Source of the DNA: Candidatus Mcinerneyibacteriota bacterium
GTDB taxonomy: Bacteria; AUK180; JAQVHJ01
Reading direction: 5' to 3'
Assembly: GCA_030630935.1 (NCBI GenBank)
Contig: DAOVMD010000060.1
Span: 1-11,082, forward strand
Length of the DNA: 11,082 nucleotides
The notes under the pieces were generated by a model. That model saw only the letters and a list, made by a program, of their open reading frames with translations, searched no databases and was not told where the DNA came from. Both the position numbers and the translations under genes were made by a program. Of the stretch, positions 6,905-10,785 are shown in pieces. How positions within the stretch are numbered: position 1 is the first letter of the stretch; each line of letters starts with the position of its first letter.

Positions 6905-6919
6905 CATCTGTTGTATAAT
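6891..6919 (+). promoter_or_regulatory. Perfect-consensus promoter inside the end of the preceding gene
   Basis: TTGACA at 6891-6896, a 17-base spacer, TATAAT at 6914-6919. The -35 box encodes residues V-D-K of the upstream protein and the stop codon lies in the spacer. The expected transcription start (~6926) leaves a ~15-base leader before ATG 6941. A TTG within the -10 box (6911) is in frame but too far upstream to be the start. Confidence 0.8.
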
Positions 6920-6940
6920 ATTGCAAAAGCAGGGATAATA

Positions 6941-7465
6941 ATGAATGATATAAGAGAAAAGAAAATAACATGGATTTCGAAGTTTTGTCTTTTTAATTAT
7001 TGGTTATCTATTTTCAGTGCCGTTCTTTTTTTATTTTGCTTAGTATTTTATATTCTCGCTATATTGAGCGGGAAGCTGAACATTCACGGAACATGGATTG
7101 AATTGCCTTTGATAAGCTTGCTATGGATGGGAATGATCTTCTGGATCCTTTCATACTTTATTTTATTCGCCAACGGAGCCCACTTAACGTTTAGCGGAGT
7201 TATCTTATTAATAGCATTAATATTTGGAAAATCTTCAAAAAACCGAGATAAAAAACATTTATTAACATCTCTGGTTATAGGAGTAATTATTTTTTCGATT
7301 GCGCTGTATATTTACCCCTTTGTCATTAATTTGGGAATTACTAGAAAAATAATTGAAGAATTTTTGAACATTTTTTATAATCTCTTTCTTTATATTTTGC
7401 TTATATTTTCTTTTACCGGCTTGTTTTTTTGTAATAAAAAAATGAATTTAAGACCCAAAAAGTAA
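6941..7465 (+). CDS. Multi-pass integral membrane protein, full-length member of a local family
   Basis: The protein has 174 residues, very hydrophobic, with about five membrane segments (~20-42, ~58-78, ~80-96, ~106-130, ~143-164). A basic loop at ~97-107 (K-S-S-K-N-R-D-K-K-H) should face the cytosol. I recognise no family. It is the only intact copy of a protein whose broken relatives lie at 73-279 and 299-619. Residues ~63-132 are best conserved, so a functional core may lie there. The start is ATG 6941 (M-N-D-I), preceded by a weak AGGG. The upstream gene also begins M-N-D-I because the two start regions are duplicates. Nine bases separate its stop from the next promoter's -35 box, and there is no terminator between them. 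Confidence 0.7.
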   Translation: MNDIREKKITWISKFCLFNYWLSIFSAVLFLFCLVFYILAILSGKLNIHGTWIELPLISLLWMGMIFWILSYFILFANGAHLTFSGVILLIALIFGKSSKNRDKKHLLTSLVIGVIIFSIALYIYPFVINLGITRKIIEEFLNIFYNLFLYILLIFSFTGLFFCNKKMNLRPKK

Positions 7466-7503: not shown

Positions 7504-7546
7504 ATAGATTATGTATAATCTTAAAAAAACAGGAGGAAGCAAACTT

Positions 7547-8956
7547 ATGAAGAAGTTAATCAGTTTGACTTTAGTGTTAGTTTTCCTGGGTGTGTTTATT
7601 GTAGGATGTGGTAAGCCACAACCGCCCGCACCGGCACCTACCCCCACACCGGCGCCAACCCCGGCACCGACCCCAGCCCCAACACCCGTACCGGATACTC
7701 AAGCTTCACTTAAACTTGACAAGACCACATTTGCACCGGGAGAGGAGATCAATCTTACATTTTTTGCATCTGCAAAATGTGAGAAAAATGCTTGGATAGG
7801 TATCATCCCGTCTACTATTTCTCATGGCAGCGAGTCAGAGAATGATAAACATGACGTGAGCTATAAATATCTTAAAGGGCAAAAATCAGGCGTTTTAAAA
7901 TTTAAAGCCCCTACCAAACCCGGAAATTACGATTTCAGGTTGAATAGTACTGACAGTAACGGCGTAGAGCTTACCTATATTGCTTTTACCGTTGGCACAA
8001 CAACCCCAACCCCAACCCCGACTCCAACCGGTACGGCTTCAATTAAGCTTGAGAAGACCACATTTGCACCGGGCGAAGAGATCAAGGTTACATTTGTTGC
8101 ATCAGCTGATTGCAAGAGCAATGCCTGGCTTGGAATTGTCCCGTCAAGAATTGCTCATGGCAGTGAAGCGGAGAATGATAAGCATGATTTAAGATACAAA
8201 TACCTTAAAGGTAAAAAATCAGGTGTTTTAATTTTCAAAGCCCCTACCAAACCCGGTAATTATGATTTCAGATTAAATAATACCGATAGTAATGGTAAGG
8301 AAGTTGCATATACTTCTTTCGTAGTAGGTTCAAAAACCACTGTCCCTTCAGGAGCAGCAACACTTAAGTTGGACAAGAAGGTTTTTAATCCTATGGAAGT
8401 TATGACAATAAAGTATACTACCCCAACAGGTTTCAAATCAACCGCATGGATCGGGATTATTCCTTCAAGGATTCCACACGGTAATGAAGCAACGAATGAT
8501 AAGCACGATATTCGCTATAGATATCTCAAGGGCAAAACCTCGGGTGTTTTAACCCTTAAAGCCCCGAACAAACCAGGTAATTGGGATGTTAGAATGAATA
8601 ATGCAGGTAAGGAATATACTTCTATTTCATTTGTAGTTCGTGGTTCAGACCCTAAAGGCCCGACACTTAAATTGGATAAAACAGTATATGCTCCCGGTGA
8701 AGAGATCACGATTACATATACTGCTCCGGGACACTATCCACAGAATGCTTGGATTGGAATTATTCCATCACATATTAATCATGGTAACGAATCTGAGAAC
8801 GATAAGCATGATGTTAGATATAGATACCTGAAGAAGAAAACTTCCGGCGTTATCAAGTTCAAAGCACCCACAAAAAAAGGTAAGTGGGATGTTAGAATGA
8901 ATGATTCAGATAACAACGGCAAAGAAGTTGCTTACGTTACATTTGAAGTAAAATAA
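7547..8956 (+). CDS. Lipoprotein with a Pro-rich linker and four ~95-residue beta-rich repeat domains
   Basis: The protein has 469 residues. MKKLISLTLVLVFLG begins a lipoprotein signal ending in the lipobox I-V-G-C with C21 as the lipidated residue, so it is anchored to a membrane and exported. A Pro/Ala/Thr linker (24-50) follows, then four homologous domains at about 53-150, 164-261, 270-364 and 372-469. Each begins L-K-L-D-K/E-x-x-(F/Y)-x-P and ends in F-x-V. Each holds A-W-(I/L)-G-I-(I/V)-P-S, H-G-(S/N)-E, an invariant N-D-K-H-D, Y-(K/R)-Y-L-K and S-G-V. A second P-T linker joins domains 1 and 2. The pattern suggests an Ig-like or carbohydrate-binding beta-sandwich. The invariant H, E, D and H could bind metal or ligand (inference). 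I cannot name the domain. Function may be surface adhesion or binding. The gene has its own promoter, AGGAGG and terminator, so it is a single-gene transcription unit. Confidence 0.8.
   Translation: MKKLISLTLVLVFLGVFIVGCGKPQPPAPAPTPTPAPTPAPTPAPTPVPDTQASLKLDKTTFAPGEEINLTFFASAKCEKNAWIGIIPSTISHGSESENDKHDVSYKYLKGQKSGVLKFKAPTKPGNYDFRLNSTDSNGVELTYIAFTVGTTTPTPTPTPTGTASIKLEKTTFAPGEEIKVTFVASADCKSNAWLGIVPSRIAHGSEAENDKHDLRYKYLKGKKSGVLIFKAPTKPGNYDFRLNNTDSNGKEVAYTSFVVGSKTTVPSGAATLKLDKKVFNPMEVMTIKYTTPTGFKSTAWIGIIPSRIPHGNEATNDKHDIRYRYLKGKTSGVLTLKAPNKPGNWDVRMNNAGKEYTSISFVVRGSDPKGPTLKLDKTVYAPGEEITITYTAPGHYPQNAWIGIIPSHINHGNESENDKHDVRYRYLKKKTSGVIKFKAPTKKGKWDVRMNDSDNNGKEVAYVTFEVK
7703..8953 (+). repeat. Four tandem domain-length repeats within the lipoprotein gene
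   Basis: Units at about 7703-7996, 8036-8329, 8354-8638 and 8660-8953. Units 1 and 2 resemble each other most (both K-T-T-F-A-P-G-E-E-I and F-K-A-P-T-K-P-G-N-Y-D-F-R-L). Units 3 and 4 share W-D-V-R-M-N and Y-R-Y-L-K. Unit 3 is slightly shorter because it lacks the D-S-N-G turn. This suggests domain duplication within the gene, probably in more than one step. Confidence 0.8.
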
Positions 8957-9152: not shown

Positions 9153-9174
9153 TAATAGCCTCTCTATGCTATTA
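9153..9174. other. Hairpin overlapping the rsgA stop codon
   Basis: TAATAGC (9153-9159) pairs with GCTATTA (9168-9174) across an eight-base loop; the right arm includes the rsgA stop codon. On the minus strand no T-run follows, so it could stabilise or weakly terminate the rsgA transcript, but I do not call it a terminator. Confidence 0.3.
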
Positions 9175-10278
9175 CCATTTCTGTCTGCGCTTCTTCTTGT
9201 TTCTCTTTGCGATCTCTTTTTTCATATCCTTTTTTCTCTGGACAAAAGCACGGTGTTTCTTTCTTCTTTCAAAGAAATGGATTTCTTTCTGTAATTTGAG
9301 ATAGCTTCTGTACCTTCCTTCATCAAGAGTTCCATCTTCAAGAGCTGAGTTTACTGCGCAGCCAGGTTCATTATTATGCCGACAGTTTTTAAATTTACAC
9401 TGTCTGATAATCTTTTCAATTTCATCAAAGACAACAGAGATTGATCCTGAAATATCTTCGCTAACCTGTAACCCCCGGATTCCTGGAGTGTCGATAATTA
9501 TTCCACCAGCGGGAAGAAAGTGCATTGACTTGGTAGAAGTTGTATGACGGCCTTTTCCGTCTTCTCTGATACTCTTAACAGCAATTTTGTTATTTTGCAG
9601 AAGAGTATTTATTAAAGTAGACTTACCTACTCCAGATGATCCGACAATAACGGAAGTCTTGCCAAACGTGAAATAATTCTGAAGTTCTTCAATTCCTTGT
9701 CCTGAAATTGAACTGACAATATGTATCTCCACATTATGAAACGCTTGATAGACCATAGAGATGTACCCCTGAATCTTAGAACATAAATCGGCCTTACTAA
9801 GGATCACGACCGGAACCGCATTGCTATTAAGAATCATCGTGATGTATCTCTCAAGACGTCTCGGATTAAACTCCTGGTTTAAGGATGTTATTAAAAACAC
9901 AGTATCAACGTTCGCAGCAATAGGCTGACTGTCACTTGAAACACTACTTGACCGGTGACCATCAACGGACTTTCGAGTAAGAAGACTCTTTCTCGGTAGG
10001 ACCTTCTCGATGATCGCATGATTCCCTGAAACCAAGTCTTTTATGGTTGCGCTTCTAATTAGAACCCAATCCCCGACGGTAGGGAAATCAATTGATTTTG
10101 TAGTTTTAAATCGGAATTTTCCTGAAATGATTGCAGAGAATTCTCCTAATTCGTTCCGGATATGAAACTCACTTCTTTGCTCTTCAGTTACACGGGCAAC
10201 TGAAAATTCGGAAAACTCTTCCTCAGAAACAGAGCTCTGAAAAAAAGTATTCCAACCTATTTTTATTAATGAATTCAT
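9172..10278 (-). CDS. rsgA: Ribosome small-subunit-dependent GTPase A
   Basis: The 368-residue protein is a circularly permuted GTPase acting in late 30S subunit maturation (family knowledge). An N-terminal OB-fold (~25-100, with F-P-T-V-G-D-W-V) precedes the permuted G domain. That domain runs G4 S-K-A-D (161-164; S in place of the usual N), S-S-I-S-G (189-193), G1 GSSGVGKST (213-221), G2 G-R-H-T-T (243-247) and G3 D-T-P-G (263-266). The zinc knuckle is C294, C299, H301, C307. The C-terminal ~30 residues are very rich in Lys/Arg, likely for rRNA contact. It is longer than B. subtilis-type RsgA but fits the ~350-residue subtype. I chose ATG 10278 because family homology begins there and AAAGGAG lies upstream, although with a long 12-base spacing. 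In-frame upstream codons (TTG 10398, ATG 10383) would add 35-40 atypical residues. A small ORF overlaps its start. Confidence 0.9.
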   Translation of the reverse strand: MNSLIKIGWNTFFQSSVSEEEFSEFSVARVTEEQRSEFHIRNELGEFSAIISGKFRFKTTKSIDFPTVGDWVLIRSATIKDLVSGNHAIIEKVLPRKSLLTRKSVDGHRSSSVSSDSQPIAANVDTVFLITSLNQEFNPRRLERYITMILNSNAVPVVILSKADLCSKIQGYISMVYQAFHNVEIHIVSSISGQGIEELQNYFTFGKTSVIVGSSGVGKSTLINTLLQNNKIAVKSIREDGKGRHTTSTKSMHFLPAGGIIIDTPGIRGLQVSEDISGSISVVFDEIEKIIRQCKFKNCRHNNEPGCAVNSALEDGTLDEGRYRSYLKLQKEIHFFERRKKHRAFVQRKKDMKKEIAKRNKKKRRQKW

Positions 10279-10450
10279 TTTCTTTATTAACTCCTTTGTT
10301 ATTATTTGTGGAACCTCTAATTTTTTGGTTCCAATGAAATTTCTTGGAGACATATTGTAAAATGTCCCTACTATTATCAGCATTTTTAAAGTTTTCAAAC
10401 ATAATATTTCCTCCTTTAATTGATTTTTGTGTTAAATGAAACGCTTTCAT
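10223..10450 (-). CDS. Small ORF with strong ribosome-binding sites overlapping the rsgA start
   Basis: ATG 10450 follows AGGAGG (10460-10455) by four bases. A second ATG in the same frame at 10402 follows AAAGGAGG (10417-10410) by seven. They give 75 or 59 residues (starts MKAFHLTQKS or MFENFKNADN), polar, Asn/Lys-rich, with no signal or domain I recognise. The frame runs 56 bases into rsgA in another frame, so its last ~18 residues are a by-product of rsgA coding. Two good ribosome-binding sites argue that ribosomes load here. It may be a leader peptide coupling translation to rsgA, a remnant of a displaced gene, or a real small protein. Confidence 0.35.
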   Translation of the reverse strand: MKAFHLTQKSIKGGNIMFENFKNADNSRDILQYVSKKFHWNQKIRGSTNNNKGVNKENEFINKNRLEYFFSELCF

Positions 10451-10497: not shown

Positions 10498-10680
10498 GGT
10501 TGGTTCTTATTCTATTGAGATGTGCTATGATATGGCTCTACAATAAACTATACCATTTAAATCCTTTTGATTTTTTTAAATATTCTTTTGAATGTCTCTA
10601 TTGTGGTGTGAAAAAAACTTAATTAACCTCAAAAGAGGCATAACTTTTTATGTCTTCTGAACTAGCAGAAAGAACCAACC
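10498..10680. repeat. 11-base perfect inverted repeat in the rsgA upstream region
   Basis: GGTTGGTTCTT (10498-10508) and AAGAACCAACC (10670-10680) are exact reverse complements 161 bases apart. One arm lies inside the 31-codon ORF and the other downstream of the T-run, so in a read-through RNA they could pair across it. The DNA between (10509-10610) is AT-rich, and I see no gene in it. Confidence 0.45.
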
Positions 10681-10750
10681 CGCAGTATTCTACTGCAATG
10701 GCAATGTCTAACATAAAAGCCTCCTTTAAGATTTTAAGGTTAATTAATTA
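10611..10750 (-). ncRNA. Predicted ~140-nt structured RNA (small RNA or attenuating leader)
   Basis: Transcribed right to left from the promoter at 10785-10757. Its first bases (10747-10737, TTAATTAACCT) pair with its last (10629-10619). Inside, 10730-10719 pairs with 10639-10628 (twelve positions, two wobbles; the innermost three compete with the outer stem), and 10718-10710 pairs with 10654-10646 (one wobble). A small hairpin, GCAGTA/TACTGC with a three-base loop, sits at 10696-10682. Seven T (10617-10611) follow the closing stem after one base, as in an intrinsic terminator. An alternative local hairpin (CCTC-TTTT-GAGG, 10638-10627) would release the inner arm. The stem contains the Shine-Dalgarno and start codon of the 31-codon ORF. 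6S-like regulator, attenuator and dual-function RNA are all possible; I do not recognise a known family. Confidence 0.5.
10619..10714 (-). CDS. 31-residue small ORF with ideal ribosome-binding site
   Basis: ATG 10714 follows a full AAAGGAGG (10727-10720) by five bases. The peptide starts MLDIAIAVEYCGLVLSAS and ends DIKSYASFEVN: a moderately hydrophobic N-terminal half, one Cys and an acidic/polar tail, with no match I know. The TAA stop lies in the closing stem next to the T-run, so the ORF fills nearly the whole predicted RNA. Such a fit argues for a genuine small-protein gene or leader peptide, but composition alone cannot prove translation. Confidence 0.45.
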   Translation of the reverse strand: MLDIAIAVEYCGLVLSASSEDIKSYASFEVN

Positions 10751-10756
10751 CAGGTA

Positions 10757-10785
10757 ATTATAACACGAGATAATTTTATTGTCAA
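10757..10785 (-). promoter_or_regulatory. Perfect-consensus promoter for the minus-strand small-RNA / rsgA region
   Basis: On the minus strand TTGACA is at 10785-10780, the spacer is 17 bases and TATAAT is at 10762-10757. Transcription should begin at about 10750, just before the first arm of the long stem. I see no other comparable promoter between here and rsgA, so rsgA may depend on read-through from this one. Confidence 0.85.

Follow-up and report, generated by a model that had tools for sequence, protein, structure and literature searches.

Our analysis identified, on the minus strand upstream of rsgA in an 11-kb window (the whole stretch of DNA analyzed, 11,082 nt, whose positions are used throughout), a genuine and well-formed orphan element that combines an ordinary promoter with an unusual, predicted self-closing RNA. 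The reading that we favor, with a confidence that stops a little short of even, is that the element is a real short transcription unit, giving rise to an mRNA of about 140 nt that closes on itself once it is finished. An initial annotation had proposed a self-contained unit with a locked ribosome-binding site. Promoter statistics and folding both speak for this proposal, but they do not distinguish among the options that it had placed side by side, namely, a regulatory RNA, a small-protein gene, and an attenuator of rsgA.

The perfect minus-strand TTGACA-N17-TATAAT promoter claimed in that annotation is present at 10757-10785 and matches the consensus at 12 of 12 positions, with the -35 hexamer TTGACA at 10785-10780, a spacer of 17 nt, the -10 hexamer TATAAT at 10762-10757, and a TG extension at 10765-10764. 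Transcription is predicted to start at about 10750 on the minus strand. In the genome assembly, the perfect arrangement occurs at 163 sites, compared with 1 site for the reversed control, and this excess indicates that TTGACA-N17-TATAAT serves as the organism's consensus promoter and that its promoters can be read directly from the sequence. We sampled 101 perfect sites, the element's own promoter included, and found an open reading frame (ORF) preceded by a Shine-Dalgarno (SD) sequence downstream of 86 of them (at least 20 codons, with the start within 300 nt), at a median distance of about 33 nt from the predicted transcription start site (TSS). The start of the element's own frame, ORF1, lies 36 nt from its predicted TSS. 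Taken together, the genomic enrichment, the 86 SD-preceded ORFs, and this typical distance mean that both the promoter and a translatable start are well supported. They resemble those of an ordinary gene of this organism, and the unusual part of the element is its strong fold. The contig shows no sign of mis-binning, since the G+C contents of the window and of the sampled loci agree (33.1% and 33.2%, respectively).

Sequences similar to the window promoter (88 to 90% identity over 31 to 34 nt) were seen at 7321-7354 of locus L003, from the same genome, and at about 1501-1531 of locus L005, from a genome of the same family. The look-alike in L003 precedes a gene resembling an anaerobic ribonucleotide reductase and has near it a sequence that we take to be similar to an NrdR box. 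One match, C329, was considered as a second copy of the element and rejected, as it is similar in the promoter only and stands before an apparent ribonucleotide reductase gene.

The RNA expected from this promoter, 10750-10611 on the minus strand, folds at -40.9 kcal/mol, whereas 200 dinucleotide shuffles averaged -25.4 ± 3.25 kcal/mol (z = -4.8) and none of them did as well; the thermodynamic check suggested at the outset thus returned a strong fold with paired ends. The minus strand folds more strongly than the plus strand (-32.8 kcal/mol), and among the 101 sampled promoters, the element's RNA had the lowest z score (-3.9, from a run using 60 shuffles). The complementary ends that had been described do lie at the predicted ends of the RNA, the terminal arms at 10747-10732 and 10634-10619 being 94% complementary over 16 nt. 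In the resulting end-to-end stem, the 5' arm (10733-10747) begins about 3 nt past the predicted TSS, and the 3' arm (10619-10633), which holds the ORF1 stop codon, ends 1 nt before a run of seven U residues (U7, 10617-10611). This run, which the annotation had also pointed out behind the closing stem, is the predicted 3' end.

Within this fold, the SD AAAGGAGG (10720-10727) pairs with a 3' anti-SD, GCCUCU (10634-10639), and an internal hairpin, GCAGUA-GAA-UACUGC, is predicted at 10680-10698. In the ensemble of the full RNA, the SD and the AUG have unpaired probabilities of 0.02 and 0.00, respectively, in agreement with the earlier view that both are locked in helices. What did not stand is the long SD stem as a separate helix. 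The outer stem (10747-10733 with 10633-10619) and the long SD stem (10730-10719 with 10639-10628) share bases and are therefore two overlapping registers of one helix rather than two stacked helices; the minimum free energy structure consists of the outer stem and a shortened SD stem. We disfavor an RNA thermometer, as the SD was modeled as paired up to 70°C.

ORF1 (10619-10714, minus strand; MLDIAIAVEYCGLVLSASSEDIKSYASFEVN) comprises 31 codons, from an ATG at 10714-10712 to a UAA stop at 10621-10619, and with the SD at 10727-10720, it has the ideal start signals and the length previously ascribed to it. Its codon score is above those of 95% of stop-free shuffles. On the plus strand, an open frame of 35 codons (MSSELAERTNPQYSTAMAMSNIKASFKILRLINYR) runs antisense to ORF1 at 10650-10757, and because its codon score is similar to that of ORF1 or higher, the coding statistics do not single out ORF1 as coding. 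Better evidence that it may be coding comes from its start signals. GGAGG-plus-start sites occur only five times on both strands of the 11-kb window, one of them opening just 8 codons. The frame contains no regulatory codon run, and no homologue of ORF1 was found in protein-family searches, in phage tblastn searches, or among relatives.

The same observations bear on a noncoding explanation, in which the element is a structured RNA, either a regulatory small RNA or a ligand-binding RNA, and the 31-codon frame is incidental. We judge this improbable. The strong structure, the paired ends, and the two internal hairpins would suit such an RNA, as would the lack of ORF1 conservation in everything searched, and in the rsgA leader, an exact 11-nt complement offers it a possible target, in cis or in trans. 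However, the SD and ATG are ideal and stand at the spacing usual for the genes of this genome, and the scarcity of GGAGG-plus-start sites in the window likewise argues against an incidental frame.

Three mutually exclusive folds are predicted for the element, and we followed them along the path of synthesis with models that assume equilibrium and use standard parameters. As long as the nascent RNA stops short of 10645, the 5' arm is in weak pairing with GGUUGGUU inside ORF1; transient pairing with the 5' arm is also assigned to GGUUGGUUCUU (10670-10680, minus strand), again inside ORF1. With the 3' end at 10661, the unpaired probabilities of the SD and the AUG are about 0.3 and 0.5, respectively. 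Opening the start region is modeled to cost about 5 to 6 kcal/mol in nascent RNA and about 8 to 13 kcal/mol once 10640-10625 has been made, with 10 to 13 kcal/mol modeled for RNA whose 3' end has emerged. A local 3' hairpin (10621-10645, minus strand; -8.0 kcal/mol), which ends 3 nt before U7, competes with both the outer stem and the long SD stem. It is a weak candidate for an intrinsic terminator, and its formation would release the SD from the anti-SD. Such a competitor had been anticipated at 10638-10627; the one predicted here is longer and would indeed free the SD, but the closed form is favored over it by about 11 kcal/mol at equilibrium (-40.9 kcal/mol for the whole RNA, versus -29.4 kcal/mol with the hairpin enforced). 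A terminator scan did not call the U7 end. Termination may be incomplete, since the U-run is preceded by a stem base rich in A/U or, in the case of the local hairpin, by a gap of 3 nt.

Considering these data, we propose the following model for the self-closing mRNA. First, a strong housekeeping promoter would produce an mRNA of about 140 nt with a normal start for the 31-codon ORF1. During synthesis, the start region would be only weakly folded, giving ribosomes a brief chance to load. Once the 3' end appears, pairing of its anti-SD and terminal arm with the 5' end would lock the SD and the AUG. The locked product would be a closed, probably stable, and silent RNA ending at U7, with most transcripts presumably stopping before rsgA. 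Any later translation of ORF1 would require a ribosome that had loaded early, trimming of the 3' end, or another factor.

The gene downstream of the element, rsgA (9172-10281, minus strand), encodes ribosome small subunit-dependent GTPase A (PF03193, E = 9e-46; TIGR00157, 173.6 bits with a cutoff of 100). Its start is overlapped by ORF2 (10223-10450, minus strand), a frame of 75 codons, or 59 if counted from the second of its two strong SD/ATG starts (10450 and 10402), which covers the first 20 or so codons of rsgA in another frame and has no credible homologue. An rsgA of this type occurs in none of the six other genomes of the class that were searched, suggesting gain from outside or loss elsewhere. 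The gene may thus have been horizontally acquired; the nearest RsgA proteins found are at most 44% identical.

The main rival of the self-closing mRNA is a translation-coupled attenuator, with ORF1 as a leader peptide and the terminal stem and U7 as a conditional terminator for ORF2 and rsgA. A ribosome reaching the ORF1 stop codon would keep the stem open, allowing polymerase to read into ORF2 and rsgA. We consider this possible but doubtful. It fits the gene order, ORF1, ORF2, and rsgA all being co-oriented, as well as the position of the ORF1 stop codon inside the 3' arm: in constrained folds mimicking ribosomes, the terminal stem was abolished only with a ribosome at that codon and not with one further upstream. 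The three mutually exclusive folds are also what an attenuator would use, and ribosome-mediated attenuation upstream of bmrCD provides a precedent (PMC4191407). Nevertheless, the terminator is weak by consensus, and ORF1 is devoid of a regulatory codon run. In favor of an attenuator, the minus strand between U7 and ORF2 has no sigma-70-like site of at least 9/12, the only one lying inside ORF2, but a weak extended -10 (TGGTATAGT), read from the sequence near 10552, could supply a separate promoter for rsgA. Furthermore, the covariance model found no such element at the RsgA loci searched, and the two papers retrieved that name both RsgA and a leader peptide do not, judging by title or abstract, describe such a leader.

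A further tie between ORF1 and the ORF2 leader, also in line with attenuation, is AAGAACCAACC (10498-10508, minus strand), located upstream of ORF2, which is the exact 11-nt complement of 10680-10670. In shuffles, a complement of any 11-mer arose in 7% of cases and one with at least five G/C in 0.2%, the latter threshold having been picked after the match was seen. When a duplex of the unit with the rsgA leader was predicted, the pairing came out diffuse and spread over long stretches, and we did not draw on it. The self-closing mRNA and the attenuator overlap, since neither can do without the terminal stem, and what separates them is whether read-through has a role. It is unlikely, in our estimate, that both roles are joined in one small nontoxin mRNA, the end-to-end stem both locking translation of the leader ORF and terminating conditionally ahead of rsgA; in that case, how much of a ribosome maturation factor is produced would depend on whether ribosomes load before the RNA closes.

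Our searches returned the element as a single occurrence. The search covered 7 genomes of the class, the source included, in a sparsely sequenced lineage, and the element was found in 0 of the 6 others by sequence, peptide, or covariance model, so that comparative evidence is absent rather than contrary. In a set of 60 genomes, searches by DNA, peptide, and covariance model yielded no credible copy or homologue, and the covariance model, built from a single sequence, had no match in 52 other loci, mostly RsgA loci. Searches of phages and plasmids and pattern scans of viral contigs likewise revealed no relatives, and there is no second copy in the element's own genome (assembly about 80% complete). 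Among the candidates set aside, a weak covariance-model match (E = 0.004) in G028, an unrelated genome, was judged to be chance, the sequence around it being densely coding and, by eye, phage-like; a second match in the own genome (E = 6) is an ordinary terminator-like hairpin; and the peptide and DNA search matches are short and attributable to chance only.

A single occurrence without conservation, together with the long near-palindromic arms, would also be compatible with a functionless element, either an imperfect inverted repeat derived from a mobile (MITE-like) sequence or a structure that arose by chance beside an ordinary promoter. We give this the least credence of the explanations considered here. 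A mobile repeat would be expected to have other genomic copies, and none was found in the roughly 80% of the genome that is assembled; moreover, the fold stands out from its shuffles (z = -4.8), and the positions of its arms match those of the predicted TSS and the U-run.

Elsewhere in the window, small membrane-like ORFs at 73-279, 401-619, and 6911-7465 share a similar stretch (SLISLIVGGILFSIELC, GLISLIVGVIICSVELC, and LLTSLVIGVIIFSIALY, respectively) and perhaps form a local paralogous family. The protein encoded at 7511-8956 resembles a lipoprotein; it contains a Pro-Thr linker and several repeats that are similar to one another and about 105 residues long (TLKLDKTTFAPGEEI...).

Type I toxins are small hydrophobic or amphipathic, typically basic, membrane peptides. 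The peptide encoded by ORF1 is instead acidic (net charge of -4, GRAVY of 0.65) and, as judged from its sequence, lacks a clear membrane helix, although the SD is, as in type I systems, predicted to be sequestered in the primary transcript (unpaired probability of 0.02). No good antisense promoter was found inside the unit, and a plus-strand promoter-like site at 10515-10544 (10/12) is near the chance rate. In view of its acidic peptide, and with neither a convincing antisense promoter nor an antisense RNA in evidence, we do not file the element as a type I toxin mRNA. Rfam returned 0 matches at gathering thresholds, a permissive search giving only matches far below threshold.

Among known systems, two kinds come closest. 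In the short type I toxin mRNAs aapA3 of H. pylori and hok, the SD is sequestered by a 3' anti-SD through paired ends, and weaker alternative folds form during transcription (PMC6733600). The element is likewise short, with a small ORF, an SD predicted to be held by a 3' anti-SD, and weaker predicted nascent folds; it differs in its peptide, and no sequence relation was found. In bmrB-bmrCD, where attenuation is mediated by ribosomes on a leader ORF, the bmrB terminator lies inside the ORF (PMC4191407). With bmrB-bmrCD and vmlR, the element shares a small ORF, predicted folds that exclude one another, and an end resembling a terminator ahead of a gene; unlike in these systems, its own SD and AUG lie in the stem, and the downstream gene is rsgA. 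If expressed as predicted, the element would extend the 5'-3' lock of type I toxin mRNAs to a peptide without a toxin-like appearance, next to a ribosome assembly gene and in a lineage with few sequenced relatives, and with it one could test in a simple way whether rsgA output is set by the availability of ribosomes.
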